Both the position numbers and the translations under genes were made by a program. Below are positions 42,021 to 56,616 of a stretch of DNA of 64,000 nt, piece by piece. Source of the DNA: a virus; the IMG/VR virus record IMGVR_UViG_3300043446_001144, positions 1 through 64,000 of that record. One strand, given 5' to 3'. The number at the start of each line of letters is the position of its first letter. The stretch's first letter is position 1. The notes under the pieces are model-generated. The model was given only the letters and a program-made list of their open reading frames with translations, was not told the origin of the DNA and did no database searches.

Positions 42021-42328
42021 TCAATACCACCTGTTAGATGAGCCATACGACGTACAAAGAAAGCCTCCACCTGACCAGTGCGGTTTGCCATGCGGCGAAG
42101 AGCAGCAGTTGGTTGAGTATCAGGAGTTCCGTATTCGAGGTTCATAGCCTCAGCACGATGGGCTTTATGAACATTTACATTAAAAGAATCATCAACACTA
42201 ATAGAGCGAACGATATGTTCAGGCCATCCGCTTGCTCGCGCCTCCGTGCGCATGAGAGCAGACATATATTTGGAAGACTCTCTACTGGCCTGCTTTATGG
42301 CGTTGCTGTAAGGATTGTTATGAGTCAC
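42017..42328 (-). CDS. HK97 gp10-like neck/tail completion protein, 103 aa
   Basis: GTG start at 42328 overlapping the preceding stop (GTGA). The protein has VDDSFNVNVHKAHRAEAMNL with EYGTPDTQPTAALRRMANR. The E-(Y/F)-GT...P.P..R.A pattern belongs to HK97-gp10-type neck and minor tail proteins that join head and tail. It overlaps the terminator-like gene by 4 bases. Confidence 0.6.
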   Translation of the reverse strand: MTHNNPYSNAIKQASRESSKYMSALMRTEARASGWPEHIVRSISVDDSFNVNVHKAHRAEAMNLEYGTPDTQPTAALRRMANRTGQVEAFFVRRMAHLTGGIE

Positions 42329-42498
42329 TTCTTTTTACCCTTCGCAGCGACTTTGCCACCGACATAGCCTGCGATAAGGGCAGTAACAATAGGTTGTCTT
42401 TCTTTTGGACGAAAGCCAAATACGCCGCGAATGAATTCTTCGCGTTCATGCGTAGAGTGAATCTCTGCGGCTTTCCTATACCAAGGCACATGTGCCAT
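42325..42498 (-). CDS. Small hypothetical protein, 57 aa
   Basis: ATG 42498 has AAAGGGG 7-8 bases upstream. Peptide begins MAHVPWYRKAAEIHSTHERE and continues with an IVTALIAGYVGGKVAA hydrophobic span and a GKKK tail, so it may be a small membrane-associated protein. It starts the neck and tail operon below the terminator at 42570-42595. Confidence 0.6.
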   Translation of the reverse strand: MAHVPWYRKAAEIHSTHEREEFIRGVFGFRPKERQPIVTALIAGYVGGKVAAKGKKK

Positions 42499-42569
42499 TT
42501 CTATCCCCTTTATCGCAAGTAGTGGGTGCTACACGGAGTCCGCACGGATTTCCGATAAGGCTAGGATAG

Positions 42570-42595
42570 AGAAAAGGCCCCGGTTAAGGGGCCTT
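42570..42595 (-). terminator. Rho-independent terminator closing the small-protein run
   Basis: AAGGCCCC (42574-42581) and GGGGCCTT (42588-42595) form a perfect 8-bp stem with a 6-base loop. In minus-strand reading the hairpin lies just after the stop at 42601 and is followed by TTCTC. It separates the small-protein block from the neck and tail genes; the same hairpin is symmetric enough to act on plus-strand reads as well. Confidence 0.8.
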
Positions 42596-42600
42596 AACTT

Positions 42601-42885
42601 TTACTTCTTTTCTTTCTTCTCACGCTTTTCTTCGGCTTTTTCGCCCTTCTTGCCTTCCTTTTTTTCGTGAGTCTTTTCTTTCTTTTTAATGCCCTTAATA
42701 ATTTTTTTATCAATCTTTACATCTTCTTGAAGAGTCTTTGGCTTCTTCTTTTTGCCGTGGGCTTTGTCTTTCTTTTCGAACTCTTCTTTCTCTTCCTTGT
42801 CGAGTCCAGCCTTTTTGGTCAAATAAGAGTCCATCTTTTCGTCAGACTTCTTGGTGTACTTGCCCTTCATAGGTGGTTTTTTCAT
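42601..42885 (-). CDS. Lysine/glutamate-rich protein, 94 aa
   Basis: An extremely charged protein: nearly every second residue is K or E (KKKKPKTLQEDVKIDKKIIK). The start MKKPPMKGKYTKKSDEKMDS overlaps the preceding stop by one base. Probably a disordered or helical DNA-associated or virion-internal protein; no family. Confidence 0.6.
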   Translation of the reverse strand: MKKPPMKGKYTKKSDEKMDSYLTKKAGLDKEEKEEFEKKDKAHGKKKKPKTLQEDVKIDKKIIKGIKKKEKTHEKKEGKKGEKAEEKREKKEKK

Positions 42886-43085
42886 TACATACCACGCTTT
42901 CTTGGCATCGCCTGTTTCTTAGCCTTAGCCTGTGAAACAGCCTTCTTAATTTGAGGCCTGTTTTTATCAGCAGCGGCCTTGCCTTGCTTACCAGCACGCA
43001 AAGTTGCTAAGTCAGCAGCATCAATCTTGTTCTTGTTGCCAGCAAGTGCAGCAATCTTCTTCTGCTTAGGAGATAGTTCTTTCAC
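42885..43085 (-). CDS. Basic helical protein, 66 aa
   Basis: A lysine/alanine-rich peptide (MKELSPKQKKIAALAGNKNK; KKAVSQAKAKKQAMPRKRGM). The LSPKQKKIAALAGNKNKIDAADL wording is common in small phage proteins of unknown role next to virion genes. It overlaps neighbours by 1-4 bases. Confidence 0.6.
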   Translation of the reverse strand: MKELSPKQKKIAALAGNKNKIDAADLATLRAGKQGKAAADKNRPQIKKAVSQAKAKKQAMPRKRGM

Positions 43086-43204
43086 TTTTTGCCTTTCTTC
43101 TTTGCAGCCTTCTTTTTTGTCTTAGCGTACTTTTTATTAGCAGCGGCTAAAGTTTTTTCACCATGCTTGTCCTTCGGGCGCATGCAGCCACATGTTGAAC
43201 ACAT
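43082..43204 (-). CDS. Small basic protein with an N-terminal CxxCxC motif, 40 aa
   Basis: ATG 43204 to TGA 43082. The peptide starts MCSTCGCMRPKDKHGEKTLA and ends in a lysine run (KKKAAKKKGKK). The MCxxCGC start is shared with the next peptide upstream, suggesting both bind a metal or partner through the same motif. Overlaps the following gene by 4 bases. Confidence 0.55.
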   Translation of the reverse strand: MCSTCGCMRPKDKHGEKTLAAANKKYAKTKKKAAKKKGKK

Positions 43205-43206
43205 GG

Positions 43207-43278
43207 TTACTTACAGCACTTGCACTTGCAGGATTTAGTCTTGCATTTACCTTTTTTACATCCACATGTAGCACACAT
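43207..43278 (-). CDS. 23-residue cysteine-rich micropeptide
   Basis: ATG 43278 to TAA 43207, overlapping the preceding gene's stop by one base. The 23 residues contain eight cysteines and eight lysines: it begins MCATCGCKKGKCKTK and continues SCKCKCCK. It has the look of a metallothionein-like or basic metal-binding peptide. It sits in a run of small genes with no gaps, and it fills its interval exactly. Confidence 0.55.
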   Translation of the reverse strand: MCATCGCKKGKCKTKSCKCKCCK

Positions 43279-43427
43279 TACTTCTTACCTGCTTTCTGTT
43301 TTGTTGGTTTTGCAATCTTGTTCCTGCCTGAACGGTCGGGAACACAATTAGGTACTTTACGACCATTCTTCATCTTCATGCCAACCTGGACATAGCCATC
43401 CCAGCATGGGTCAGACTTTTTAGCCAT
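43278..43427 (-). CDS. Small conserved phage protein (CWDGYVQVGMK type), 49 aa
   Basis: Start taken at ATG 43427 (MAKKSDPCWDGYVQVGMKMK); upstream open frame is shadow. The motif CWDGYVQVGMKMKNGRKVPN followed by CVPD recurs in many unrelated phages as a small protein of unknown role. Two conserved cysteines may pair or bind metal. Confidence 0.65.
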   Translation of the reverse strand: MAKKSDPCWDGYVQVGMKMKNGRKVPNCVPDRSGRNKIAKPTKQKAGKK

Positions 43428-43650
43428 TCTTATTTTCCTTCTTGTGAGGGTTACCTTTGTGCCAGTCCTTAACGGCTTTGACACCCTGCTTAATTGTCTT
43501 AGACCCACCCTTTTTAGTCAGGTTAATTTTATCCCACTTGCCAGCCTTAGCCTTGGCTTCGTGGTCAACGACCACATCTCCCTTGCTGTTCTTTTTAACA
43601 GTGTGCTTAATCCCTTGAACTTTAATGGTCTTTGATTTTTCTTTTTTCAC
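43420..43650 (-). CDS. Basic hypothetical protein, 76 aa
   Basis: Lysine-rich, with a beta-like first half (KTIKVQGIKHTVKKNSKGDV) and a tail DWHKGNPHKKENKNG. It overlaps the genes on both sides by 4-8 bases. Family not recognised. Confidence 0.6.
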   Translation of the reverse strand: MKKEKSKTIKVQGIKHTVKKNSKGDVVVDHEAKAKAGKWDKINLTKKGGSKTIKQGVKAVKDWHKGNPHKKENKNG

Positions 43651-43829
43651 GGAACCACTTTCTTACGATGAGTGTAACGAATGGGAGGTTTTGGCTTACG
43701 AACATAGCCGCCACGCTTTTTGCGCAACTTGGCTCCACCTGATTCGTACTTGCCCTCTGTAAGAGTGGTACGAACCTGTTTTTGAGGTGCTTTCCCTGCA
43801 CGAGCACCAGGTGATTTTTTACGACGCAT
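43647..43829 (-). CDS. Arginine/lysine-rich protein, 60 aa
   Basis: A very basic peptide (MRRKKSPGARAGKAPQKQVR; KLRKKRGGYVRKPKPP) starting on the last base of the upstream stop. Likely nucleic-acid binding by charge; no family. Confidence 0.6.
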   Translation of the reverse strand: MRRKKSPGARAGKAPQKQVRTTLTEGKYESGGAKLRKKRGGYVRKPKPPIRYTHRKKVVP

Positions 43830-44008
43830 TACTTCTTCTTTTTAGACATTCCCGCTTCGCTCATGGCGATAGCAACAGCCTGCTTGCGTGACTTAACTAC
43901 AGGTCCCTTACCTGGACCTTTCTTACCCGATTTTAGTTTGCCGGATTTGTACTCACGCATAACTTTTTCAACTTTTCCTTTTTGCTTTGACGTTGCTTTT
44001 TTTGCCAT
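43829..44008 (-). CDS. DUF6496-type small basic protein, 59 aa
   Basis: ATG 44008 to TAA 43829. The peptide has KVEKVMREYKSGKLKSGKKG, then a PVVKSRKQAVAIAMSEAG segment. That is the pattern of DUF6496 proteins (KV.KVM.E.K.G.L..G.....V.SRKQA.AIA.SEAG), common in phages near virion genes. Function not known. It overlaps both neighbours by one base. Confidence 0.75.
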   Translation of the reverse strand: MAKKATSKQKGKVEKVMREYKSGKLKSGKKGPGKGPVVKSRKQAVAIAMSEAGMSKKKK

Positions 44009-44145
44009 TACTCTTCCTCTTCTACTAGTTCTTCTTCATCCCAAACATGGTCATCATATTCTTCTTCCTCTAAAGATTCATAGTCAAAATCTTCTTCAAA
44101 CAGAGTAGGGTCAATTTCTGGCTCAAAACTTTCCATATTAGACAT
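44008..44145 (-). CDS. Small acidic protein, 45 aa
   Basis: ATG 44145 to TAA 44008. About half of the residues are E or D (ESLEEEEYDDHVWDEEELVE), in sharp contrast to the very basic proteins encoded downstream. It lies one base after the collagen-like gene's stop. It could bind or neutralise the basic neighbours (inference). Confidence 0.55.
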   Translation of the reverse strand: MSNMESFEPEIDPTLFEEDFDYESLEEEEYDDHVWDEEELVEEEE

Positions 44146-44146
44146 G

Positions 44147-45643
44147 CTATGCCACCCGTGTGATAGAGGCCACGTAGAACGTGTAAGTGTTTGTTGTCCC
44201 AGAGTTCATTGTTAGTTTTAGGTAGTTTAAGGCAGTTGTGTCTACTGCTACGGCAGTGGTGGTGTTGGTTGTGACTGTGCTGCCGTTGTAATGACTGGTT
44301 GTGCTTCCAAGAATAGTTCCGGCAATTCCAGTACTTCGCACTGTAATAAGGGCATTTATTTCTATTGCCCCTGCAGTTGCTGTTGCTCCAATGGTTCCTG
44401 TTGTTGCGACGGTACCAGTCGTTGCGGATGTAGTTGTTCCTACTCTAACATTGTAGGTAGCAGTAACATTGTTAGTTCCAGTGCGAACTCCGTATGCCCT
44501 TACAATGTAACTAGAACCAACTACTAAAGCATCTGCGGCTACAGCAAGGTTGATAACGTTGGTCTCTGTCGCTGCAGTTGTGGTTACGCTGGTTGTTAAT
44601 GAACTACCACTTAAACCCAGAGTGCCTTGAATTCCTTGTGTACCTATTGTTCCTTGGTTTCCTGTTAAACCTGTAGTTCCCTGGAATCCTTGAATTCCCG
44701 TAAGACCTTGAGTTCCTTGTCGGCCTTGAATTCCTTGAGTACCTTGAGCACCTGTGGCACCTTGAATACCGTTAGTTCCCTGTGTACCAACCGTACCTTG
44801 AGAGCCTAGTGTTCCTTGAATACCCTGTCTTCCTTGAATTCCTTGTGTTCCTTGCGTACCAAGGACACCTTGTGTTCCTTGTCGGCCTTGAATTCCTTGA
44901 GTACCAATGACTCCTTGAATACCTGTTAAACCTTGCGCACCAACACCAACCGAACCTTGCGCACCAATTACTCCCTGTATTCCTTGAGTTCCCTGTGTGC
45001 CGAGCGTTCCTTGAGAGCCGGTTGTTCCTTGACGTCCCTGTACACCTTGTACTCCTTGAAGACCTGTAAGACCTTGGTTTCCAGCAATACCTTGTGCACC
45101 AGCAGTTCCCTGTGCACCCTGTTGACCAACACCTGTAATTCCCTGTAAACCAATGTAGCCCTGCAATCCTTGCGCACCTGCAGTTCCTTGCGCACCATTA
45201 CTGCCACTAGTTCCAGAAGAGCCTTGCGTTCCTGTTCTACCTTGAACACCTTGTGTTCCATTTGTGCCCTGAATACCCGCAGAACCGTTAGAACCTGCAG
45301 TTCCTTGTGTTCCTGTTCCCGCAACACCTTGAGTTCCATTTAAACCTTGAGTACCAGTCGTACCCTGACGACCTTGAGTTCCTTGAGCACCTGTTCCATT
45401 TGCTCCTTGAATACCAAGCGCACCCTGTGTTCCAGTAAATCCTTGAATACCTATTGTTCCAGTTGTTCCTTGGAGTCCTAACGGACCACGAGTTCCTTGT
45501 ACGCCTTGACGACCTTGAGTTCCTTGTCGGCCTTGAATAGCCTGTGTACTTAAAGATTGGATTCCAGCATCTAAATAATCAAGCGCTGCATTAAGTGTGA
45601 CATCCCAATCGGATTGTCCTGCAACGGGCTTTTGAAGTGGCAC
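44147..45643 (-). CDS. Collagen-like fibre protein, 498 aa
   Basis: GTG 45643 with GGAAAGG upstream. Residues 1-35 form a helical/attachment segment (MPLQKPVAGQSDWDVTLNAA), and about 38-335 are uninterrupted Gly-X-Y triplets, mainly GTQ, GIQ, GVQ and GRQ (GRQGTQGRQGVQGTRGPLG). A C-terminal beta domain (about 340-498; VVGSSYIVRAYGVRTGTNNV) would trimerise or bind a target. Charged residues and prolines are rare, so the helix would rely on Gln/Thr. Probably a virion surface fibre. It has a partner at 57012-59276. Confidence 0.85.
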   Translation of the reverse strand: MPLQKPVAGQSDWDVTLNAALDYLDAGIQSLSTQAIQGRQGTQGRQGVQGTRGPLGLQGTTGTIGIQGFTGTQGALGIQGANGTGAQGTQGRQGTTGTQGLNGTQGVAGTGTQGTAGSNGSAGIQGTNGTQGVQGRTGTQGSSGTSGSNGAQGTAGAQGLQGYIGLQGITGVGQQGAQGTAGAQGIAGNQGLTGLQGVQGVQGRQGTTGSQGTLGTQGTQGIQGVIGAQGSVGVGAQGLTGIQGVIGTQGIQGRQGTQGVLGTQGTQGIQGRQGIQGTLGSQGTVGTQGTNGIQGATGAQGTQGIQGRQGTQGLTGIQGFQGTTGLTGNQGTIGTQGIQGTLGLSGSSLTTSVTTTAATETNVINLAVAADALVVGSSYIVRAYGVRTGTNNVTATYNVRVGTTTSATTGTVATTGTIGATATAGAIEINALITVRSTGIAGTILGSTTSHYNGSTVTTNTTTAVAVDTTALNYLKLTMNSGTTNTYTFYVASITRVA

Positions 45644-45658
45644 TATGTATTACCTTTC

Positions 45659-46267
45659 CTAGTAACCGTAACTACTGTCGCCATAGCCATTTGCACCGTA
45701 GCCAAAGTATTCGGTAGATGTTGCATACTGTTGGAACTGCGGGTCATTGACCATTTCTTCGGAATTGACCATGTTACAGTCAATAGTGACTACTGAGTAT
45801 CTATCCTTATATCTTCCTCGTGGGTTAACTCGCGTGGGAACAAAGACAAATCCTTGAAATATAATACGGTCTTTTATATGTTTGCTTGGGTCTGTAATCA
45901 TTGCTGGAAGAAGTCTGTTTATATCTGCGACACTTACTACTAAGCGTAGAGTATCTGTGGTGTAGAAGCCTCGCTCATTCATAATATTGCTGCCACGCAT
46001 CTGTTGGGCAAGAATTACAGGTAATTTAAAGGAGGTATTCCAACGCCTTCCCTTGTTATCTACTTGATTTGAGACGTCGTAGATGGGGTCTACCCAGTTC
46101 GTATAGTTTTGGCGTAAAGCATCAGCATCCCAAACCCACCAATCAACCTCAGTTCCTACGGGGTCGCGTAACTCATCAACGATACCCTCATCCATGGACT
46201 GGGTTTCGTAGTCGATTTTAAAGCGTCCTTGGACTTTAGTCCCACGCATAGAACCTCCCAACGGCAT
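45659..46267 (-). CDS. Unknown virion-associated protein, 202 aa
   Basis: The open frame starts at ATG 46267, but an internal ATG at 46249 (MRGTKVQGRF) follows GGGAGG and is equally likely. The protein has RDPVGTEVDWWVWDADALRQ and a central mixed segment, with the C-terminus FGYGANGYGDSSYGY rich in Tyr/Gly. Similar wording occurs in phage structural proteins near fibre genes, but I do not recognise the family. It is the last minus-strand gene before the opposite-strand island. Confidence 0.55.
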   Translation of the reverse strand: MPLGGSMRGTKVQGRFKIDYETQSMDEGIVDELRDPVGTEVDWWVWDADALRQNYTNWVDPIYDVSNQVDNKGRRWNTSFKLPVILAQQMRGSNIMNERGFYTTDTLRLVVSVADINRLLPAMITDPSKHIKDRIIFQGFVFVPTRVNPRGRYKDRYSVVTIDCNMVNSEEMVNDPQFQQYATSTEYFGYGANGYGDSSYGY

Positions 46268-46335: not shown

Positions 46336-47337
46336 ATGAATTTGGTACAACGAGCAGTCTCATCTGGCGGAAAACTTGCCCCTCTAGTCATCTCCCACGG
46401 TCTAACCGCTGGAACAGGGCTAATGAACCCCTCAATTTTTATAGACGATGAAGGCGATATTCTTGTCAATTTACGGCATGTTAACTACACCCTCTATCAT
46501 GCAGAAAATCATCAGAAGTTCCCAAGTAGATGGGGACCTCTCTCTTATTTGCATCCAGAAAAAGACCAACGTCTAGTTACCGTCAATTATGTTTGTCGTC
46601 TAGACGAAAATCTCTTAATGACTGATTTTGCAAAAGTTGATACTTCTAAGTTTGATGTTGAGCCTAAATGGGAATTTGTTGGTGAAGAAGACTGCCGTCT
46701 TGTTCAATGGGATGGCGACTACTATTTAGTAGGCGTTCGTAGAGATACTACTACTAATGGTGAAGGACGTATGGAGTACAGTAAAGTGACAATAGATAAA
46801 CGCAAATGGTCTGTTAAAGAGGTTTCTCGTGTTCGCATTCCTGCTCCTATGCCCAACATCTCTTACTGTGAAAAGAATTGGGTACCTATTATTGATAAAC
46901 CTTATCACTTTGTAAAATGGGTATCCCCAGTAGAAATTGTAAAAGCGTCCCCCAACAAATCGGAATGTGACCAAGTTAAATTAAAACAGTGTCTTGTTAC
47001 TCCCATGGACCAACGAGGAAGTTCTCAAGTTATTAGATGGAAAGGACAGTACATCTCTATAACACACGATGTTGATTTATTTAAAAATTATTTGAATCAA
47101 AAAGACGGAATCTATCGTCATCGTGTACTAGTTTGGAATGATGACATGAACCTTATTGGAATTTCTAATCAATTTTCTTTTTTAGATGCTCGAATAGAGT
47201 TCTGTGTTGGGGCTGCAGTTCATAACGAAGATTTATTGATATCTTTTGGATTTCAAGATAACGCTGCTTTTGTGCTGAGAACTCCTGCACATATTGTGGA
47301 CGCTCTTGTAGAGGAGGCTTTGCAATATGGCAATTGA
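46336..47337 (+). CDS. Five-bladed propeller glycosidase/phosphorylase-like protein
   Basis: First gene of the plus-strand island, 333 residues, ATG 46336 after AGGA. Motifs spaced around a propeller are visible: MNPSIFIDDEGDILVNLRHV (about 36-55), EEDCRLVQWDGDYYLVGVRR (about 118-137), KNWVPIIDKPYHFVKWVSPV, GSSQVIRWKGQYISITHDVD, and a closing EFCVGAAVHNEDLLISFGFQ blade. This NPS...EDxR...KNW...G(S/T)...EFxxG...SxGxxD layout is that of GH130/GH43-like glycan-acting propellers. The exact substrate and activity cannot be read. Confidence 0.65.
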   Translation: MNLVQRAVSSGGKLAPLVISHGLTAGTGLMNPSIFIDDEGDILVNLRHVNYTLYHAENHQKFPSRWGPLSYLHPEKDQRLVTVNYVCRLDENLLMTDFAKVDTSKFDVEPKWEFVGEEDCRLVQWDGDYYLVGVRRDTTTNGEGRMEYSKVTIDKRKWSVKEVSRVRIPAPMPNISYCEKNWVPIIDKPYHFVKWVSPVEIVKASPNKSECDQVKLKQCLVTPMDQRGSSQVIRWKGQYISITHDVDLFKNYLNQKDGIYRHRVLVWNDDMNLIGISNQFSFLDARIEFCVGAAVHNEDLLISFGFQDNAAFVLRTPAHIVDALVEEALQYGN

Positions 47338-47887
47338 AGATTTGATAGTTGACTTATCAAGTGACCCGTTCAATCACGAAAAGAACTTCACCGTTGCAAG
47401 TGAATATCAAAAGTTAAATCAAACCGCTTCTGCTGTTTCCTTTTACCTAAGAACTGCAGAGTATGGTCCAGAAAAAGGAAGCCCACATGTATACGCATCT
47501 CTATTAAAGATGGCGAGATGCTTTAATGACCAGCATGACAGAAAGCACACTGTAACAAACTGTCTACTTCAAGCAATTGCTTATTGGCCTGAACGACCAG
47601 AAGCGTACTTTTATCTATCGCAATTTCATGAAAGAGAAAGTAATTGGCAAGAATGCTACACCTTTGCAGAAATTGGTCTTAATCTTGCTGATTTTGACAA
47701 ACTTCCAGGAGAACTTGACTATTACGGAAAGTATTGCTTGGAATTTGAAAAGGCAGTAAGCGCCTACTGGGTGGGACGTCGAGATGAGAGCATCAGTATG
47801 TTTATACAGTTAAAGACCAAAAATCTAGAGTCTGATTATGTTGAATCTGTAGAAACTAATCTAAGGAGTTTAGGTGTTACTTTTTGA
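47327..47887 (+). CDS. TPR-type protein linked to glycan genes, 186 aa
   Basis: The sequence contains helical pairs with TPR wording: VASEYQKLNQTASAVSFYLR (about 22-41), LKMARCFNDQHDRKHTV, NCLLQAIAYWPERPEAYFYL and SQFHERESNWQECYTFAEIG (about 97-116). TPR arrays frequently accompany phage glycosyltransferases. It overlaps the propeller gene by 11 bases and the FkbM gene by 14. Confidence 0.65.
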   Translation: MAIEDLIVDLSSDPFNHEKNFTVASEYQKLNQTASAVSFYLRTAEYGPEKGSPHVYASLLKMARCFNDQHDRKHTVTNCLLQAIAYWPERPEAYFYLSQFHERESNWQECYTFAEIGLNLADFDKLPGELDYYGKYCLEFEKAVSAYWVGRRDESISMFIQLKTKNLESDYVESVETNLRSLGVTF

Positions 47888-48545
47888 TATTGGTGCAAAC
47901 CGTGGTGACGCAGTAGTTGCTGGGTTAAACAAAGGGTACAAAGTAGTTGCTGTTGAGGCTGCTCCTAAAATATTCAGAGCATTAGAGACTAACTTTAAAA
48001 ATAACCCTAATGTTCGTACCATAAAGTTTGCTGTTTCTGAAAAAGATTTTGAAACTGTAAATTTCTACGAATGTATTGAAGATGGGCTTTCAACCCTAAA
48101 TTTAGACTGGCTTACAGCAGACACCATGCCATACAATGGGAAACGGTTTTGGACAGTAGAAGTTACGACAATAACTATCGACACTCTAGTTAATTTGTAC
48201 GGAAAACCTGACCTTATAAAAATAGACGTAGAAGGTGCAGAATGGTCTGTTTTCAAAGGAATGACGCAAAATTATGGAAAACTTACCTTTGAATGGACTT
48301 TTGAAACCATAAAAGAACACGAAAAACAATTAGACTATCTCTACACGTTAGGGTATACACATGTTGCTCCACAGTACATCGTCCATCACTTAGACGAGCC
48401 TACTGAATGGTATGAACTGCAGCAAAATAACCTCAATCAACTGTACATTTGGCATCAAGAGACCTCCGATGCATGGATAGAGGGTGGGTGGAAAACCGCA
48501 AACCTTAGACCAACTGCCGATGTTGGAATGTGTTGGGTAAAGTGA
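47874..48545 (+). CDS. FkbM-family methyltransferase
   Basis: GTG start at 47874 with AAGGAG upstream; 223 residues. SAM motif I is LLFDIGANRGDAVVAGL (about 2-18), the acidic end of strand 2 is VVAVEAAPKIFRALE, and the FkbM signature is TTITIDTLVNLYGKPDLIKI followed by DVEGAEWSVFKGM (about 100-133). FkbM proteins methylate hydroxyls of sugars or polyketides. In this island it would modify a glycan made by the two glycosyltransferases. Confidence 0.85.
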   Translation: MLLFDIGANRGDAVVAGLNKGYKVVAVEAAPKIFRALETNFKNNPNVRTIKFAVSEKDFETVNFYECIEDGLSTLNLDWLTADTMPYNGKRFWTVEVTTITIDTLVNLYGKPDLIKIDVEGAEWSVFKGMTQNYGKLTFEWTFETIKEHEKQLDYLYTLGYTHVAPQYIVHHLDEPTEWYELQQNNLNQLYIWHQETSDAWIEGGWKTANLRPTADVGMCWVK

Positions 48546-48557
48546 TAGGGTTTAGCA

Positions 48558-49235
48558 ATGACTAACGCTCTTCCGCATTTCAATATAATCTTTGCAACTC
48601 CAGGGCACTCTATGCTTCCCGGATATGTTCGAAGTATACTAAAAAGCACTTACTATTTGACTCACAAAGGTCTAACATGGAATTACCTTACTGATTATTC
48701 CTCTTTGGTTGCGCACGCAAGAGAAAAGACTATTGGTGGAACAGGTTATCAAGACCGCAGTAATAAAAAACCAGGTCATGGAACCTTTACCTACGATGTT
48801 ATAGTTTGGATTGACTCAGACATAGCGTGGGAGCCAGAAGATTTGTTTAGACTCATAGAGCATAAAGAGGAGATTGTTTCTGGGTGCTACATGATGGAGA
48901 ATGGAGAAGTGACTGTTTATCCAGAAGCATTAAAAAACGGTATGAGAGTAGAGGAAATTCTTCGCATGAAGAAGCCGTTTGAAGTTAGAGGAGTAGGTTT
49001 TGGGTTTTTAGCAATTAAGTATGGGGTATTTGAGCGCATGGAGCGTCCTTGGTTCTCTCAGGTCGAGGTCGAGGTAATGAATGATAAAACAGGAGAACCA
49101 GAATACAAATTTCCTCTTATGGGAGAAGACTTGTCTTGGTGTGAGAAGGCGCATCGTATGGGGTTGAAAATTTGGGTGGACCCACTTATCAGGGTGACGC
49201 ATCACAAACAAATAAAGTTGGAATGGCCTCGTTAA
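48558..49235 (+). CDS. GT-A type glycosyltransferase
   Basis: A 225-residue protein. NIIFATPGHSMLPGYVRSIL begins the nucleotide-sugar-binding fold, and YDVIVWIDSDIAWEPEDLFR (about 88-107) holds the DxD metal motif. EIVSGCYM and GVGFGFLAIKYGVFERM follow, with a late EDLSWCEKAHRMGLKIW acid/base segment. This is the layout of small single-domain GT-A transferases seen in phages and giant viruses. The sugar and acceptor are unknown. It starts 12 bases after the FkbM gene. Confidence 0.8.
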   Translation: MTNALPHFNIIFATPGHSMLPGYVRSILKSTYYLTHKGLTWNYLTDYSSLVAHAREKTIGGTGYQDRSNKKPGHGTFTYDVIVWIDSDIAWEPEDLFRLIEHKEEIVSGCYMMENGEVTVYPEALKNGMRVEEILRMKKPFEVRGVGFGFLAIKYGVFERMERPWFSQVEVEVMNDKTGEPEYKFPLMGEDLSWCEKAHRMGLKIWVDPLIRVTHHKQIKLEWPR

Positions 49236-49760
49236 ATGCCTGTATCTAACCCAGAAACCAAACCTTGGATTGCTAAACAATTACTTGCTTTAAAACCTAG
49301 AACTGTTCTAGATGTTGGAGCAGGAAAAGGTTTATATTTAAACTTAGTATACGATGTACTTGGAAAACACAATGTTCACGTAACTGGCGTTGAAGTATGG
49401 GAAGAGTATGTAAACTTTTTTATGCTTGAAATGCGGTATGACAAGTTAGTAAAGGCTGACGTAAGAGACATGCAGGAGTTTAATTACGATTTAGTTATTC
49501 TTGGAGATGTCCTTGAACACATGTCCAAAGATGATGCGTTAGCATTGTGGACTAAGATAAGTAAACAGGCAAAATACGCTGTAATTGCTATACCTGTTGT
49601 TCATCACCCACAAGATGCAGTAAACGGTAATCCCTTTGAAGTACATGTAAAGGAAGATTGGACCACTACCGAAGTGCTAGAGAGTTTCCCTGGTATTATT
49701 GACCATGCCGAGTTTTCAGTATGCGGTGCCTTTTTAGCCAAATTTAAAGGAGATTTATGA
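49236..49760 (+). CDS. Class I SAM-dependent methyltransferase, 174 aa
   Basis: Motif I is TVLDVGAGKGLYLNLVYDVL (about 19-38), the strand-2 acid is in VHVTGVEVWEEYVNFF, the middle motif is ADVRDMQEFNYDLVILGDVL, and EHMSKDDALALW follows. It is a general small-molecule or glycan methyltransferase by context. It directly follows the GT-A gene (49235/49236) and overlaps the next small gene by 4 bases (ATGA). Confidence 0.8.
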   Translation: MPVSNPETKPWIAKQLLALKPRTVLDVGAGKGLYLNLVYDVLGKHNVHVTGVEVWEEYVNFFMLEMRYDKLVKADVRDMQEFNYDLVILGDVLEHMSKDDALALWTKISKQAKYAVIAIPVVHHPQDAVNGNPFEVHVKEDWTTTEVLESFPGIIDHAEFSVCGAFLAKFKGDL

Positions 49761-49897
49761 GTGTTTATAAACGCCCTGGTTGGACACACCCGTCACCTTT
49801 TGCAAATGCAGAAACTGCACCTACTGAACCGTTAGATGTCGTTTCAGAAGAAGAGCCTTTAGTAGATGAACCTTTGTTGCCTGTAGTAGAGGAATAG
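49757..49897 (+). CDS. Small acidic peptide in the glycan island, 46 aa
   Basis: ATG 49757 overlaps the preceding stop by 4 bases, with AAAGGAG 6 bases upstream, and its TAG abuts the next ATG at 49898. It begins MSVYKRPGWTHPSPFANAET and ends in a run of E, P, L and V (EEEPLVDEPLLPVVEE). The YKRPGWTHPSPF start looks like a virion-anchoring or docking peptide. No family known. Confidence 0.6.
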   Translation: MSVYKRPGWTHPSPFANAETAPTEPLDVVSEEEPLVDEPLLPVVEE

Positions 49898-50797
49898 ATG
49901 ACTGAGAAGGTTATGCCTATGGGAGGCTCTGACATTATGTTGGAGGGCCTCAAAAAATACGTAAATTTAGATGGGATAAACGTTATACAGTCAGTATGTG
50001 ATGAAAGGTTGATTGACTTAGATAAAAAGAATATTCTTTGGCAGCATTTGCCCGCAAATCAACCATTAGTTCAAGGAATTAGTGACAAGTATTTTCAACG
50101 GCAGTTAGATGCCACCGTTATGGTTTCTCACTGGCAACATGAAAAGTACAGATTTATGCATCAAATTCCGTTATCTAATGTTGTTGTTATAAAGAATGCT
50201 ATAGAACCTATAGAGTTTATTCCTCGTTCTACAGGTCGTAAAATAAAGGTAATATATGCGTCTCCGCCATATCGCGGTTTAGACGTAATGTTAGCGTCTT
50301 TTGAGTTATTAAACAGAGATGATGTTGAGTTAGATATTTACTCCTCTACGATTATCTATGGCTCAGATTATGTAAAACATGAGGGTGACCGATACGAACC
50401 TCTATTTAATAAAGCAAGGGAATTGCCTAATGTAAACTACATTGGTTATGTTCCTCATAAAGAGATGATAAGTGCCTTCCAAAATGCCGACATTCTTGCA
50501 TATCCTTGCACTTTTGAAGAAACTTCGTGTCTTACAGTAATTGAGGCCGCCGCTGCTGGGTGCAAAATTGTTACTACTAACATTGGCGGTCTTCCTGAAA
50601 CAGGCTCTGAATTTGCAACTCTAGTACCAATACAAGCAACACATCTCGAATTAGTGTCTAGTTTTTCTTACTTTTTAAATAAAGTAATTGATGAAATTGA
50701 TTCTTTTGATGGAGCGTACCAGTCATCTTTTTACAACAAAATGTATGATTGGGAAAGACGTGCTATTGAATGGAAGTCTTTAATTAGTATGCTCTAA
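49898..50797 (+). CDS. GT-B type glycosyltransferase, GT4-like
   Basis: A 299-residue protein, ATG 49898. The C-terminal half has the GT4 nucleotide-sugar motif: FQNADILAYPCTFEETSCLT (about 187-206), then VIEAAAAGCKIVTTNIGGLP (the EAxAxGxPVV(A/T)...GG(L/I)PE motif). It lacks a long N-terminal GT-B domain, and the first 100 residues include KNAIEPIEF, the usual acceptor-side strand turn. It is the last island gene and converges on the beta-propeller gene, overlapping it by 14 bases. Confidence 0.8.
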   Translation: MTEKVMPMGGSDIMLEGLKKYVNLDGINVIQSVCDERLIDLDKKNILWQHLPANQPLVQGISDKYFQRQLDATVMVSHWQHEKYRFMHQIPLSNVVVIKNAIEPIEFIPRSTGRKIKVIYASPPYRGLDVMLASFELLNRDDVELDIYSSTIIYGSDYVKHEGDRYEPLFNKARELPNVNYIGYVPHKEMISAFQNADILAYPCTFEETSCLTVIEAAAAGCKIVTTNIGGLPETGSEFATLVPIQATHLELVSSFSYFLNKVIDEIDSFDGAYQSSFYNKMYDWERRAIEWKSLISML

Positions 50798-53700
50798 TAT
50801 AAGGTGTATAACCATCGATAGTTTCAGAGAGTGCGTTAAAACTAAACGCATTTAAAACTGCAGAGGCTATACGAGGCGTACCATCCCTTGCAGCAATAAA
50901 CAAACCTCCACCGCTAGCAATACCTCGTATTGTACTTGTTCCAAATGTAGCAACATTAGTTACCCAAGTAATACCGTCTGTAGAAGTCTTTAATGCTCCA
51001 GCAGAACCACCTGCAACCCATAAGTTATTACCATAAGACAGTGCAGGTAAGGAATTAACACTAGCACTAAAAGAAGTTTGAACAGACCAATCAAGAGACT
51101 TAGAACTTACGTTTATACTTCCACCAGTACCTCCTGCTACGTAGATTCCGTTACCATACACACCCGCACCCAACCCACCAGAAAGGCCATTGGTAGTACG
51201 CGTAGTCCAAGTAACTGCATCAGTGGAGGTTTTTAAAAGACCAGTATTTGGTCCAGCAATTATCCAGAGGTTATTTGCGTAATCTAGTAAGTTAACGGTA
51301 CTCATACCGGCGCTCTGCGTAACCCAGGTAATACCATCAGTAGATGTTCGTACAGCATTAGCACCACCTGCAACCCATAGGTTATTCCCATAGGCTACGT
51401 TGGTTATTGCTGTAGTACCAAAATTTGAGGTTCTTGTAGTCCAGGTAACTCCGTCAGTAGATGTCCGGAGAGTCCCTCCAACACCGCCAGCCACCCATAG
51501 ATTGTTTCCATAGGCTACTGCGTTTATGTCAGAAGTACCGAAGTTTGACGTTTGTGTGGCCCAGGTAATGCCGTCAGTAGAAGTTCTGAGAGTCCCTCCA
51601 ACACCGCCAGCCACCCATAGGTTATTTCCGTAAGCGACTTCGTTTATTATTGAAGTACCAAAATTTGACGTTTGTGTAGTCCAGGTTACTGTATCAGTAG
51701 AGGTTCTGATGCCTCCAGCAGAACCGCCTGCAACCCATAAGTTATTGCCATAGGCTATAGAGTTTATTGATGTAAGACCAAAATTTGAGGTCTGAGTAGT
51801 CCAGGTAAGTCCATCAGTAGATGTTTTGAGAATTCCATTAGAAACACCTACTCCTACAAAAGTCCCATTACCGTAAGCAAGTGAGGCTATACTTGTGGTG
51901 CCCCAATTACTATAGACATAGTTCCATGTAGTGCCAAAATCTGAAAGAATTGCACTACTAGATTTGTATACTCTTGGAGTTGTATTAATCATGAAAGTTT
52001 GATTACCATACTTAACTACCTCATTAGCAACATTTGTTAGAGGAGTTCCTTGGAAATACCAGTTTAAACTTTTAGCGGTTGTTCTAATAACACCAGATTC
52101 ACCTACTGAAACAAAAAACTTATCTACATAAGTAAGATAATTAATAGTATTAGTAATTGACAATAGGTTTGCTGACTGCGTAGTCCAGGTAACTCCGTCA
52201 GTGGAGGTTCTTACTGTTCCAAATTGTCCAGCGGCTACCCATAGATTATCTCCATAGGCTACTGAGTTTATGGTAGTAGCACCGAAATTTGAAGTTTGTG
52301 TAGTCCAAGTAATGCCATCAGTGGAAGTTCTTAAAGTTCCTCCAACACCGGCTGCAACCCATAGGTTATTTCCATAGGCTATTGCGTTTATGGTAGTAGA
52401 ACCAAAATTTGAGGTCTGTGTAGTCCAAGTAATTGCATCAGTAGATGTCCGGAGAGTTCCGCTATTACCGCCTGCAATCCATAGGTTATTGCCATAGGCT
52501 ATAGAACGAACGTTTGTAGCACCAAAGTTTGACGTTTGTGTAGTCCAAGTAATGCCGTCAGTAGAGGTTCTGATAGTTCCGGCAGAACCTCCTGCAACCC
52601 ATAGGTTATTTGCGTAGGTTACTGTGTTTATTATTGAAGTACCAAAGGTTGATGTTTGTGTAGCCCAGGTAACTGCATCAGTGGAAGTTCTTAAAGTTCC
52701 AGAATTACCAACCGCAACCCATAGATTATTTCCATAGGCTACTGCGTTTAGGGTAGCAGTAGTATTTGACGTTTGTGTAGCCCATGTTGTAACAGTAGTG
52801 GTAGTTCTGAGAGTTCCATTATCACCAACTGCAACTAGAGTTCCATTGCCATAGGCCACTGCATTTAGATTAGTAGTAGTAGTATTTGAAGTCTGCGTGG
52901 CCCAGATAACTCCAGGGTCGCTATATGTGTTGTCACTTATACTTATTGCTCCGCTGTTGCCAACTGCTACCCAAATATTATTGCCAAAAGAAATATCGTT
53001 GATAGTAGTAGACAATATAGGCGCTTGTGGAATCCATGTGGTTACACTATTTAAGTCGGACATAGATGCAGCAGTTGTCGAAGGTCCTGCTACAAACACT
53101 CTTCCAGCACCATCAGATTCCATTGCTGTTAAAGATGTTCCATAACCTGTTCTAGTTATCCATTTAGGAGAAGTAGAATTTGAAACTCTTATTATTCCAC
53201 CAGTACCAACTGTTACAAAAAGACCATTACCGTAGGCTATGGATGATACGGTTGAAGAAAAATTTGAGGTTTGTGTAGTCCAGGTAATTCCGTCAGTGGA
53301 AGTTCTCACTGTTCCGCTTACACCAACCGCAACCCATATATTACTTCCATAGGCTACTGCGCTTATGTTAGAGGTACCAAAATTTGAGGTTTGAGTAGCC
53401 CAGGTAATGCCGTCAGTGGAAGTTCTGAGAGTTCCAGCATTGCCGCCAGCCACCCACAGGTTATTTCCATAGGCTACTGTGCTTATTGCTGTAGTACCAA
53501 AATTTGACGTTCTTGTAGTCCAAGTAACTCCATCAGTGGAAGTTCTTAGAGTTCCAGAAGAACCAACCGCTACCCATAAGTTATTTGCGTAGGCTACTGC
53601 ATATAGACTCTGTGAACCAAAGTTTGACGTTTGTGTAGCCCAAGTAACCCCGTCAGTAGAAGTCCTTAAAGTTCCAGCAGAACCGCCTGCAACCCATAAG

Positions 53701-54443
53701 TTATTGCCATAGGCTATAGAACGAATGGTTGTAGCACCAAAGTTTGACGTTTGTGTGGCCCAGGTCACTGTATCAGTAGAGGTTCTTAGAGTTCCATTAA
53801 GACCAACTGCTACCCATAGATTATTTGCGTAGGCTACCGCGTGTATGTCAGAAGTACCGAAGTTTGACGTTTGTGTAGCCCAAGTAATGCCGTCAGTAGA
53901 AGTTCTTAAAGTTCCGGTTAAACCAACCGCCACCCATAAGTTATTTCCATAGGCTACGCTTGAATTTGCTACTCCTGCAACTCCAAAGTTATTTGTAGTG
54001 TTAGATTCACGTGGTAACCATGCAGTTCCTATATCTGCTGCTGCTGTACCATCCCATGTGTTAAATGAACCTGTTATCCAAGAGTTATTTGCATAAAGTA
54101 TTTTAGAACTAGTAGATTTCAACGAACTTAAAGACCATACACCTGTTGAAGTATTGTAGAAATCTACAGTCGAGAATGTAGAAGAAATTAACCCAAATAA
54201 ACCATTACCATAGGCTACTGCGTTAGTTGCAGTTACTCCATTACTGGGTTGAGTAGCCCATACAAGAGCGTTAGATTTTCCTAATTTTTTACCTAATGCG
54301 CTTTTAGAGTTCACGAGTACATTTGAATTAGCGGCAATCCATTCAGGTCCTGGACTATCTAATGTAGATTTTACATATACAACATCTCCTATGTTGTATA
54401 CATTAGATGAATTTGGTTCGTTCTTAAACAGCCCTTTGTTCAT
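50784..54443 (-). CDS. Giant beta-propeller repeat fibre protein, 1219 aa
   Basis: The protein is built from about 25 copies of a 40-residue unit with the wording AYGNNLWVAGGSAGTLRTST, DGITWTTQTSNFGT. STDG(I/V)TW resembles the Asp-box/BNR motif of sialidase and YCF48-like propellers. Seven or so units close one propeller, so several propellers could lie in a row. The unit is exactly 120 bp for most of its length and varies mostly at a few positions. The N-terminal 80 residues differ (MNKGLFKNEPNSSNVYN) and probably attach the fibre. It is likely a surface adhesin or receptor-binding fibre. Confidence 0.75.
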   Translation of the reverse strand: MNKGLFKNEPNSSNVYNIGDVVYVKSTLDSPGPEWIAANSNVLVNSKSALGKKLGKSNALVWATQPSNGVTATNAVAYGNGLFGLISSTFSTVDFYNTSTGVWSLSSLKSTSSKILYANNSWITGSFNTWDGTAAADIGTAWLPRESNTTNNFGVAGVANSSVAYGNNLWVAVGLTGTLRTSTDGITWATQTSNFGTSDIHAVAYANNLWVAVGLNGTLRTSTDTVTWATQTSNFGATTIRSIAYGNNLWVAGGSAGTLRTSTDGVTWATQTSNFGSQSLYAVAYANNLWVAVGSSGTLRTSTDGVTWTTRTSNFGTTAISTVAYGNNLWVAGGNAGTLRTSTDGITWATQTSNFGTSNISAVAYGSNIWVAVGVSGTVRTSTDGITWTTQTSNFSSTVSSIAYGNGLFVTVGTGGIIRVSNSTSPKWITRTGYGTSLTAMESDGAGRVFVAGPSTTAASMSDLNSVTTWIPQAPILSTTINDISFGNNIWVAVGNSGAISISDNTYSDPGVIWATQTSNTTTTNLNAVAYGNGTLVAVGDNGTLRTTTTVTTWATQTSNTTATLNAVAYGNNLWVAVGNSGTLRTSTDAVTWATQTSTFGTSIINTVTYANNLWVAGGSAGTIRTSTDGITWTTQTSNFGATNVRSIAYGNNLWIAGGNSGTLRTSTDAITWTTQTSNFGSTTINAIAYGNNLWVAAGVGGTLRTSTDGITWTTQTSNFGATTINSVAYGDNLWVAAGQFGTVRTSTDGVTWTTQSANLLSITNTINYLTYVDKFFVSVGESGVIRTTAKSLNWYFQGTPLTNVANEVVKYGNQTFMINTTPRVYKSSSAILSDFGTTWNYVYSNWGTTSIASLAYGNGTFVGVGVSNGILKTSTDGLTWTTQTSNFGLTSINSIAYGNNLWVAGGSAGGIRTSTDTVTWTTQTSNFGTSIINEVAYGNNLWVAGGVGGTLRTSTDGITWATQTSNFGTSDINAVAYGNNLWVAGGVGGTLRTSTDGVTWTTRTSNFGTTAITNVAYGNNLWVAGGANAVRTSTDGITWVTQSAGMSTVNLLDYANNLWIIAGPNTGLLKTSTDAVTWTTRTTNGLSGGLGAGVYGNGIYVAGGTGGSINVSSKSLDWSVQTSFSASVNSLPALSYGNNLWVAGGSAGALKTSTDGITWVTNVATFGTSTIRGIASGGGLFIAARDGTPRIASAVLNAFSFNALSETIDGYTPYIRAY

Positions 54444-56410
54444 TGTTTAATCCATCCCCATATGTTATTTCCTAAGTCTAAATTAGGAAGAGAATTAGGA
54501 GATACCTTTATTAGTCCAATATTAGTAACAACAACCCATAGGTTATTTCCATACGCTATTCCATTATAACTATCAGTTGGTAAAGTGCCTAGATTAAGGG
54601 CATACCATGTCGTGTAATCGGGTGAAACCTTGCCGCCTGCAACGTCAACGCACAACGCCATTGCTTTATTTCCATATAATATTCCTTCAGTTATAGAATT
54701 AATGCCATAACCAGTACCAAGATTTGACGTTTGTGTAGCCCAAGTAACTCCATCAGTAGAGGTTCTGAGAGTTCCTGCGGTACCGCCTGCAAACCATAGA
54801 TTATTTCCATAGGCTATTGCGGTTATGTTTGTAGAACCAAAGTTTGACGTTCTTGTAGTCCAAGTAATTGCATCAGTAGATGTCCGGAGAGTTCCAGCAG
54901 AACCGCCTGCTACCCACAGATTATTTCCATAGGCTACTGAGAGTATTGCTGTAGTACCAAAGTTTGACGTTTGAGTAGTCCAGGTAATTGCATCAGTAGA
55001 TGTCCGGAGAGTTCCGCTATTACCGCCTGCAACCCATAGGTTATTGCCATAGGCTATTGCGTTTATGGAATTAGAGGTATTCGGATTTCTTGTGGTCCAG
55101 GTAATACTATCAGTGGAGGTTCTTAAAGTTCCGTTATTACCAACCGCAACCCACAAGTTATTTCCATAGGCTACTTCATTCAGGACATTATTAGTATTTG
55201 GTGTTTGTGTAGCCCAAATAAGGCCATCAGTAGAAGTTCTGATAGTTGCGCTATTACCAACTGCTACAAAGAGACCGTCTCCATAGGCCACTGAGTTTAG
55301 GCTAACAGTAGTATTAGAAGTTGCAGTAGTCCATATATAAGGATATCCCGCATAGTAGAGAGTATTACCGGGATAAACTGCAGTTCCATTAGCCTTTACC
55401 CAATTGTCACCAGGTTTATCGATTCCAAATTTAATTTCCCCACGATTAAACTGGGTATTGTGTAATGAACGAAGGCCTTTATTCATGAAAACCTACCATA
55501 AATTTTTGGAAGTTCATCATATGATGCTTTTAACTGTACAGGGTATACGCTTTGTTGAGCGTTTGCAGAGGTTGTAGATGTAGTCTTCATTGCTCCCGAA
55601 GTGCCAACCATTACCCATAGATTATTACCATAGAAAATACTAGTAGGATTAATTAAATTAATTGATATGTTAGATGGTTGTGTAGTCCAGTTTACGCCAT
55701 CAGTAGACGTTCGTATATTTTCGGCGTTTCCTATCGCTATCCATAGGTTATTTCCATAGGCTATTGCGTTTATGGTAAAAGAACCAAAATTTGACGTTTG
55801 TGTAGTCCAAGTAATTGCATCAGTAGAAGTCCGGAGAGTCCCTCCAACACCGCCAGCCACCCATAGGTTATTTCCATAGGCTATAGAGGATATGTTTGTA
55901 GAACCAAAATTTGACGTTCTTGAAGTCCAGGTAACTCCGTCAGTGGAGGTTCTTACGACTCCGACAGAACCTCCTGCAACCCATAGATTACTTCCATAGG
56001 CTACTGCGTTTATGCTAGCAGTAGTACTAACTGATTGTGTAGCCCAAGTAACTCCGTCAGTAGAGGTTCTTAAAGTTCCGTTACTACCTCCTGCAACCCA
56101 CAGATTATTCCCGTAGGCTACTGCGGTTATATTTGTAGTACCAAAGGTTGATGTTTGTGTAGCCCATGTAATCCCGTCAGTAGAGGTTCTTAAAGTTCCT
56201 GCGACACCGCCAGCCACCCATAGGTTATTGCCATAGGCTATTGCGTTTATTGCTGTAGTACCAAAATTTGAGGTCTGTGTAGTCCAGGTAATGCCATCAG
56301 TAGAAGTCCGGAGAGTTCCTGCGGCACCGCCAGCCACCCATAGGTTATTTCCATAGGCTATAGAGTTTATATTTGTAGTACCAAAATTTGACGTTTGTGT
56401 AGTCCAGGTA
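50930..56410 (-). repeat. 120-bp tandem repeat arrays across three genes
   Basis: In this interval a 120-bp unit recurs in register. On the given strand a typical stretch has CATAGGTTATT(T/G)CCATAGGCT and a GTAGTCCA(A/G)GTAA(T/C) segment, with a TCAGTAGA(T/A)G core. Neighbouring copies are often nearly identical, even between genes. Such high identity among many units indicates recent duplication or ongoing recombination. Confidence 0.85.
54440..55486 (-). CDS. Beta-propeller repeat protein, 348 aa
   Basis: A shorter paralogue of the genes on both sides, overlapping each by 4 bases. About six repeats (NNLWVAVGNNGTLRTSTDSI; NPNTSNSINAIAYGNNLWVA) would form one propeller. The N-terminus MNKGLRSLHNTQFNRGEIKF differs from its neighbours, and the C-terminus ends with GNNIWGWIKQ. 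It appears to be a single-propeller version of the adjacent 1219-residue protein. Confidence 0.75.
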   Translation of the reverse strand: MNKGLRSLHNTQFNRGEIKFGIDKPGDNWVKANGTAVYPGNTLYYAGYPYIWTTATSNTTVSLNSVAYGDGLFVAVGNSATIRTSTDGLIWATQTPNTNNVLNEVAYGNNLWVAVGNNGTLRTSTDSITWTTRNPNTSNSINAIAYGNNLWVAGGNSGTLRTSTDAITWTTQTSNFGTTAILSVAYGNNLWVAGGSAGTLRTSTDAITWTTRTSNFGSTNITAIAYGNNLWFAGGTAGTLRTSTDGVTWATQTSNLGTGYGINSITEGILYGNKAMALCVDVAGGKVSPDYTTWYALNLGTLPTDSYNGIAYGNNLWVVVTNIGLIKVSPNSLPNLDLGNNIWGWIKQ

Positions 56411-56616
56411 AGAATACGTTCTGCAGTGTAGATGCTTGGTAACGAATTTACAACAAAAGGATTTGATAAAGTATTTTTTAGTGAATTACTAGGAGAATTT
56501 ATACCGTAAGCAAATAGCCTTAAAACACCGCCCTTAGTTGAGTCCAAAAATAATGAATTAGACTGGTCCTCATTAGTGTTGGGCTTTCGTGAACTTCCAA
56601 ATGTGCCCCTGTTCAA
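55483..56616 (-). CDS. Beta-propeller repeat protein, 377 aa
   Basis: Third paralogue with about seven 40-residue repeats (ITWTTQTSNFGTTNINSIAY; GNNLWVAGGAAGTLRTSTDG) in residues 70-345, an N-terminal 70-residue arm (GSSRKPNTNEDQSNSLFLDS) and a polar end. It is the first of three tandem genes, with start/stop overlaps of 4 bases, and presumably derives from the same ancestral unit. Confidence 0.75.
   Translation of the reverse strand: MNRGTFGSSRKPNTNEDQSNSLFLDSTKGGVLRLFAYGINSPSNSLKNTLSNPFVVNSLPSIYTAERILTWTTQTSNFGTTNINSIAYGNNLWVAGGAAGTLRTSTDGITWTTQTSNFGTTAINAIAYGNNLWVAGGVAGTLRTSTDGITWATQTSTFGTTNITAVAYGNNLWVAGGSNGTLRTSTDGVTWATQSVSTTASINAVAYGSNLWVAGGSVGVVRTSTDGVTWTSRTSNFGSTNISSIAYGNNLWVAGGVGGTLRTSTDAITWTTQTSNFGSFTINAIAYGNNLWIAIGNAENIRTSTDGVNWTTQPSNISINLINPTSIFYGNNLWVMVGTSGAMKTTSTTSANAQQSVYPVQLKASYDELPKIYGRFS

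Follow-up and report, generated by a model that had tools for sequence, protein, structure and literature searches.

Virion proteins of mycobacteriophages are decorated by phage-encoded glycosyltransferases (GTs) (Freeman et al. 2023, cited in PMC12619734 and PMC10877033), and the glycans, as the citing papers present them, are located on capsid and tail-tube subunits. In the A064R/A061L glycan assembly of the chlorovirus PBCV-1, virus GTs and, after them, sugar O-methyltransferases equip a virion protein with a methylated glycan (PMC9614988). A precedent for the acceptor chemistry is BclA from the Bacillus anthracis exosporium, a Gly-X-Thr collagen-like fibre that is O-glycosylated on Thr with a methylated oligosaccharide (PMC6222408). 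Here we compare these systems with an island of seven plus-strand genes at positions 46336-50797 of a 64,000-nucleotide stretch of viral DNA (the window), which is positions 1 to 64,000 of the 77,009 bp IMG/VR record IMGVR_UViG_3300043446_001144. The island probably encodes a system for the glycosylation and methylation of virion fibres, formed by two cassettes that travel with fibre genes.

The island resembles the mycobacteriophage systems in its phage-encoded GTs and in their likely targets, virion proteins, which are here read from the genes. It differs in its linkage to collagen-like and propeller fibres and, set against those systems as the citing papers describe them, in a BMT/GH130-like propeller, a tetratricopeptide repeat (TPR) adaptor and methyltransferases. 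PBCV-1 likewise combines virus-encoded GTs with methyltransferases (again read from genes in our case), but it is a eukaryotic algal virus with a capsid N-glycan, it has two GTs and a methyltransferase fused, and it uses no propeller transferase or TPR protein. BclA is a cellular spore protein modified by other enzymes and serves solely as a precedent for the acceptor.

Two cassettes in one island

The initial annotation described seven plus-strand genes amid minus-strand virion genes, and all seven open reading frames (ORFs) are present and intact in an otherwise minus-strand virion region, with GC and AT skew reversing across 46-51 kb. Its list of genes was correct in content and wrong in order: the genes run propeller, TPR, FkbM, GT-A, methyltransferase, 46-amino-acid (aa) peptide and GT-B, so that GT-B comes last, after the second methyltransferase. 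Overlaps between neighbours measure 4-14 nt; other pairs adjoin without a gap, and FkbM and GT-A stand 12 nt apart. The GT-B stop overlaps a convergent fibre gene (50784-54443) by 14 nt. A promoter scan gave 5 sites against 15.6 expected, and no promoter was called.

A search of IMG/VR with the propeller, in which loci were dereplicated for counting, returned at least 593 related stretches. The TPR gene comes directly after the propeller in 58 of 59 dereplicated loci, mostly with an overlap of 8-14 nt, and in 43 of 55 FkbM is the gene after that; this order recurs across hundreds of viral loci, far beyond chance. The full seven-gene set was seen in the window virus and one near-identical contig only, and a DNA search of phages with the whole island gave one weak 5% match, the seven-gene unit being no known phage block. 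Two relatives (L026, L079) carry the first three functions at the matching site without the last four, and in L003/L091 the former, with TPR and FkbM fused, are inverted relative to the latter, giving equivalent functions in six genes. The island is composed of two separately recombining cassettes, module A (propeller, TPR, FkbM) and module B (GT-A, methyltransferase, peptide, GT-B). The proposal of a self-contained system is thus borne out for a set that builds and methylates a glycan, not for one single system. Module A is common to phages of cyanobacteria, of probable actinobacteria and of a Rhodobacteraceae bin; a literature search of open-licence papers found no description of the cassette.

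Linkage to fibre genes and near-absence from cells

The window belongs to a freshwater, contractile-tailed phage (sheath 39834-41345, major capsid 60915-62042, portal from 62961) that is kin to Streptomyces phages. Related isolates have genomes of ~112-116 kb, and the 77-kb record may thus be incomplete. Since the closest named phages, such as BRock and Alone3 (capsid ~60-62% identical), infect Streptomyces, an actinobacterial host is a reasonable inference. In both phages the island site is empty, the orthologues of its two boundary genes abutting with a 0-bp gap. These boundary genes are, on the left, a conserved virion-region gene (45659-46267, minus strand; BRock gp142 and Alone3 gp85; tblastn 3e-12, family profile 1.6e-35) and, on the right, a gene at 59273-60322 (minus strand; BRock gp143 and Alone3 gp84; tblastn 1.6e-38 and 3e-35). 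In the window virus they are separated by 13 kb that hold the island, three propeller fibres and a collagen-like fibre, and other relatives fill this slot with differing fibre sets, with or without module A.

The fibre genes named as flanks in the initial annotation were all found, on the minus strand. A collagen-like gene at 44147-45643 (Pfam Collagen 1.1e-44) encodes Gly-X-Y repeats rich in Thr and Gln and is a candidate glycan acceptor; the first 27 residues of its product are shared with the gp86 tailspike of Alone3 (52%). A second collagen-like fibre gene, within the slot (57012-59276, PHROG tail fibre profiles), is likewise a candidate acceptor. Between it and the island lie the three propeller-repeat fibre genes (50784-54443, 54440-55486 and 55483-56616), which have DUF6242 matches, carry YGNNLWVAVGxxGTLRTSTDG repeats and could be the acceptors of module B.

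Both cassettes are linked to such genes beyond this virus. Dereplicated module-A loci flanked by 5 kb or more on each side numbered 24, and 21 of them have a collagen-like gene no more than 6 kb away; in an earlier cut the figure was 13 of 15, compared with 8 of 49 unrelated GT-B-family loci (Fisher P = 1.2e-6). Module B follows the YGNNLWVAVG propeller fibres, which are found within 6 kb in 8 of 9 loci with both GT-A and GT-B versus 3 of 40 with GT-B only (P = 3e-6). The fibre linkage of the cassettes is statistical and no longer anecdotal. It extends to unrelated virions: cyanophage DSL-LC02, a metagenome-assembled genome of another family (PMC10611076), has a collagen-like gene (minus), then propeller and TPR-FkbM (plus), then a large tail-fibre gene (minus), and in one module-A lineage a PF04860-type portal gene adjoins. 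The position, at first thought unusual, is therefore not so, as in many phages the cassette sits within the virion genes, next to a collagen-like gene and on one strand or the other. We also dismissed the opposite strand as a functional feature, since in 14 of 24 loci most neighbours share module A's strand.

Collagen repeats near module A have a Thr share of 26% against 18% (P = 3e-5), which is compatible with O-glycosylation as in BclA. A hydroxylation-first collagen chemistry, considered for loci with a 2-oxoglutarate oxygenase (L087) or DUF6445 (L206/L207), was rejected because Lys and Pro are all but missing from the repeats.

The close propeller family is nearly absent from cells. In a genome set of 85,462 species, a scan of contigs with two peptide patterns, which was not exhaustive, gave 5 propeller loci, compared with the viral stretches counted above. 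The longer cellular loci are phage-like, with collagen-like and endolysin-like genes in L212 and neck- and terminase-like genes beside L214; the others are short contigs in which the TPR partner is also present. In 291 cyanobacterial genomes, a profile search turned up one such phage-like contig and a distant fusion protein (L217) only, and among 298 genomes of the Rhodobacteraceae bin's family only that bin was found. We dropped the reading of the propeller as an auxiliary metabolic gene acquired from hosts because of this near-absence. The bin itself (G002, contigs C81, C116 and C48) carries three propeller-TPR copies on phage-like contigs, with several radical-SAM-like genes adjoining.

The encoded proteins

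The first gene of module A (46336-47337, plus strand) encodes a five-bladed propeller that fold and motif place in the GH130/GT108/BMT clan. The best PDB matches of its AlphaFold2 (AF2) model (mean pLDDT 85.6) by Foldseek were GH130 mannoside phosphorylases and the Leishmania MPT GDP-mannose transferases (E ~1e-7, TM 0.5-0.6), with which it shares the propeller fold and a GxED motif at 11-16% identity. The placement required this fold comparison, as profile searches of solved structures put only lectin beta-propeller repeats on top, which we took as a generic propeller signal. Profile alignment pairs GLEDARLVKWDGKYYL of the propeller with GLEDPRIVKIDGIYYM from a solved phosphorylase, and its GxED region aligns to GLEDPR of solved phosphorylases, with the presumed catalytic Asp in place in the GH130-type fold. 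Residues G116, E118, D119, K180, N181, R227, H244 and D308 are invariant, the distant cyanobacterial L217 included, and D119, in the conserved GxED, is the presumed catalytic acid. The family as a whole reached a best E of 1.3e-4 against GH130 PF04041. The label "glycosidase-like propeller" in the initial annotation was right as to the propeller; a classic glycosidase it is not, the nearest proteins being mannoside phosphorylases and mannosyltransferases rather than hydrolases as a class.

L217 is a 728-aa cyanobacterial chromosomal protein (G288:C1:2173567-2174247) that joins GT2, TPR and a BMT/GH130-like propeller in a single chain. Its last domain aligns with the propeller family across 271 columns (98.8% probability), passes the cut-off of BMT PF12141 (31.9 versus 28.3 bits) and scores better against BMT (7e-8) than against GH130 (0.004). 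For this reason a transferase is favoured over a phosphorylase for the window propeller, whose BMT link runs through L217 alone; it is predicted to be a beta-mannosyl or related transferase or phosphorylase of the clan. Beyond phages, the best viral structural matches (BFVD) were giant-virus proteins, including those of Pithovirus LCPAC102/304 and Mimivirus LCMiAC02, with E down to 5e-18 and TM ~0.75; these differ in being uncharacterised, usually within longer proteins, and from viruses of eukaryotes.

The second gene (47327-47887, plus strand) encodes the TPR protein expected from the initial annotation, weak by Pfam and clear as a superhelix in the AF2 model (mean pLDDT 95.1), which Foldseek pairs with TPR proteins including the TPR domain of O-GlcNAc transferase. 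It would be an acceptor-binding adaptor. Its role as a common partner is supported by fusions, both to FkbM (L206, L215, L300 and L003/L091) and to GT2 in the equivalent slot (L246, L263) or with the propeller in L217; the TPR part of the GT2-TPR proteins is related to the module-A TPR protein. Such a GT2-TPR fusion lies directly upstream of the conserved slot-boundary (tail202-family) gene in many further contigs (L246, L254, L255, L260 and L263). The third gene (47874-48545, plus strand) encodes an FkbM-family S-adenosylmethionine (SAM) methyltransferase that exceeds curated cut-offs in Methyltransf_21 PF05050 (5.7e-16, 59.6 versus 22.7 bits) and TIGR01444 (1.2e-24, 87.4 versus 37.7 bits) and is presumed to be a sugar O-methyltransferase. 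Other loci vary this gene: the TPR-FkbM protein of DSL-LC02 (L206:9959-12109) also bears a radical SAM and SPASM domain, and L267 has a Methyltransf_24 gene at the usual FkbM position together with a GT25 domain. GT25-family domains adjoin module A in L267:2503-3766 and L215:3511-5493; the family includes collagen galactosyltransferases as well as lipopolysaccharide enzymes.

Module B, also on the plus strand, begins with a GT2-like GT-A protein (48558-49235) assigned through phrog_1574 (2e-54; Pfam 4e-4). Its IDSD and ED (GED) motifs are conserved, its PF00535 score of 20.7 bits is under the 23.3 cut-off, and it remotely matches the viral GT-A protein A197 (2c0n). The class I SAM methyltransferase that follows (49236-49760; Methyltransf_25/11, 6e-7) has orthologues in L003/L004 only. 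The last gene (49898-50797) is clearly a GT4-like GT-B (Glycos_transf_1 5.1e-14, 52.6 versus 26.4 bits; phrog_2170 2.7e-32) whose EX7E motif reads E-TSCLTVI-E. Between these two lies the ORF of the 46-aa acidic peptide (49757-49897). Relatives hold a diverged version of it between the matching two genes (L003/L091/L300; equivalent position in L004), and the N-terminal M-x-x-Y-x-RPGW-x-HPSP and the acidic tail are kept in two of them, which identifies it, on sequence conservation, as a genuine gene. Family scans clearly back the initial annotation for FkbM, this methyltransferase and GT-B, back it for GT-A through phrog_1574, and do so weakly for the propeller and TPR genes. In another locus a sulfotransferase gene (L102:4340-5161) adjoins the GT-A/GT-B module, which suggests that some of these glycans are sulfated.

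Two features elsewhere in the window deserve mention. On the minus strand at 42325-44145, a run of 8 very small basic ORFs encodes proteins of 40-94 aa with net charges between +7 and +20, of which 7 are Lys-rich (18-39%), and a strongly acidic 45-aa ORF (51% D/E) comes next; comparable Lys-rich sets occupy the equivalent position in L026, L063, L079, L226 and L231. The Lys-rich proteins possibly condense DNA or are packaged. At 253-1758, also on the minus strand, lies a queuine tRNA-ribosyltransferase-like gene (phrog_887, 4e-62), which may be connected to the modification of phage DNA or tRNA with 7-deazaguanine.

Proposed function and alternative explanations

In the mechanism we propose, the TPR protein would bind fibre protein soon after its synthesis, with the Thr-rich collagen-like shaft as the most likely target. 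The propeller, as a mannosyltransferase-type enzyme, would be the first or chain-building sugar transferase, adding a beta-mannosyl or similar sugar from a donor that is presumably made by the host, since the 77-kb record, possibly incomplete, holds no nucleotide-sugar genes of the families tested. FkbM would then cap this sugar by O-methylation. GT-A and GT-B of module B may lengthen a glycan, either one carried by the propeller-repeat fibres or the chain begun by module A, with the second methyltransferase as its capping enzyme, and the product could stiffen or protect the fibres, or alter adsorption or host recognition. That the acceptor is a protein and that this protein is the fibre, as well as the sugar and every enzymatic activity, is what we infer from the fibre linkage of both modules, the design common to unrelated virions, the empty site, the TPR fusions, the mannosyltransferase-containing clan with its GxED motif, the restriction to viruses, the Thr enrichment, and the record's lack of an integrase, GtrA or the tested nucleotide-sugar families.

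Several points count against fibre glycosylation. A glycan on any virion protein has no direct evidence. The propeller sequence scores 13.0 bits (E 0.048) against GH130 PF04041, which falls short of the Pfam cut-off of 26 bits; the BMT PF12141 profile had no match in the 77-kb record, where no control matched either, and a phosphorylase and a transferase cannot be told apart for this protein. In the reverse test, only 2 of 33 collagen-like loci had a propeller within 6 kb, and most phage collagens therefore manage without one. Synechococcus phage S-SCSM2R (laboratory host WH7803) has the propeller and TPR genes with no collagen gene annotated nearby. A recombination hot spot at the fibre genes, rather than function, could explain the linkage, and the Thr enrichment may be phylogenetic.

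More specifically, and only tentatively, module A might be a largely virus-restricted machine in which TPR presents collagen-like fibres, the propeller directly glycosylates Thr of Gly-X-Thr and FkbM methylates the product, with a propeller family common to tailed phages and collagen-bearing giant viruses. Linkage to fibre genes favours the virion over the host as the site of the glycan. A host site is nevertheless the alternative that survives best, as an unlikely but serious one: the enzymes would remodel a host surface glycan, for receptor masking, superinfection exclusion or progeny release, with receptor recognition and modification swapped together. GT2, GT4, FkbM and GT25 are indeed common in bacterial surface-glycan synthesis, and genes gathered at a single receptor-specificity locus could be swapped en bloc. 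However, module A spans very different hosts, where a modifier of host glycans should track glycan type, and a TPR adaptor speaks for a protein as the acceptor. Neither GtrA (PF04138) nor an integrase (PF00589) was found in the 77-kb record, which may be incomplete; the GtrA partner and lysogenic context of a gtr-type seroconversion cluster are missing, and there is no sign of lysogenic conversion.

A role of the propeller in the degradation or phosphorolysis of a mannan-like host glycan (GH130 activity), whether to supply the neighbouring transferases with sugar phosphates or to help infection along, is improbable. GH130 phosphorylases are its top structural matches and the presumed catalytic Asp is conserved, but the sequence similarity is low, the L217 fusion joins GT2 and TPR to a domain closer to BMT, and the partner genes are transferases and methyltransferases. 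Hitchhiking cargo, gathered at a fibre-locus hot spot without a common substrate, appears distinctly improbable: slot content is highly variable among relatives and few collagen loci have a propeller, yet the propeller-TPR order is near-invariant with short overlaps, partners are fused, and fibre linkage is kept across lineages and on both strands. A role of the GTs in modifying the bases of the phage's DNA, known from T-even phages and others with hypermodified DNA, is extremely improbable: the queuine-like gene hints at 7-deazaguanine chemistry, but the island lies in the virion region, away from replication genes, and FkbM and TPR proteins are, to our knowledge, not part of known base-glucosylation systems.

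The island is real, and it is more widespread and more structured than first described. The usual place of the three-gene set in viral contigs, next to collagen-like tail-fibre genes, suggests that phages attach sugars to fibres of their own. Most documented cases of virion glycosylation in phages concern the capsids and tail tubes of mycobacteriophages; if the proposal is true, fibres are a common target of glycosylation in aquatic phages, given that the three-gene cassette is found in hundreds of environmental viral contigs. The cassette is a defined set that can be tested in an isolate, S-SCSM2R having two of its genes. It would give a function to a propeller family that at present has either no name or conflicting labels (MGP protein, beta-mannosyltransferase), and it may connect phages with giant viruses.

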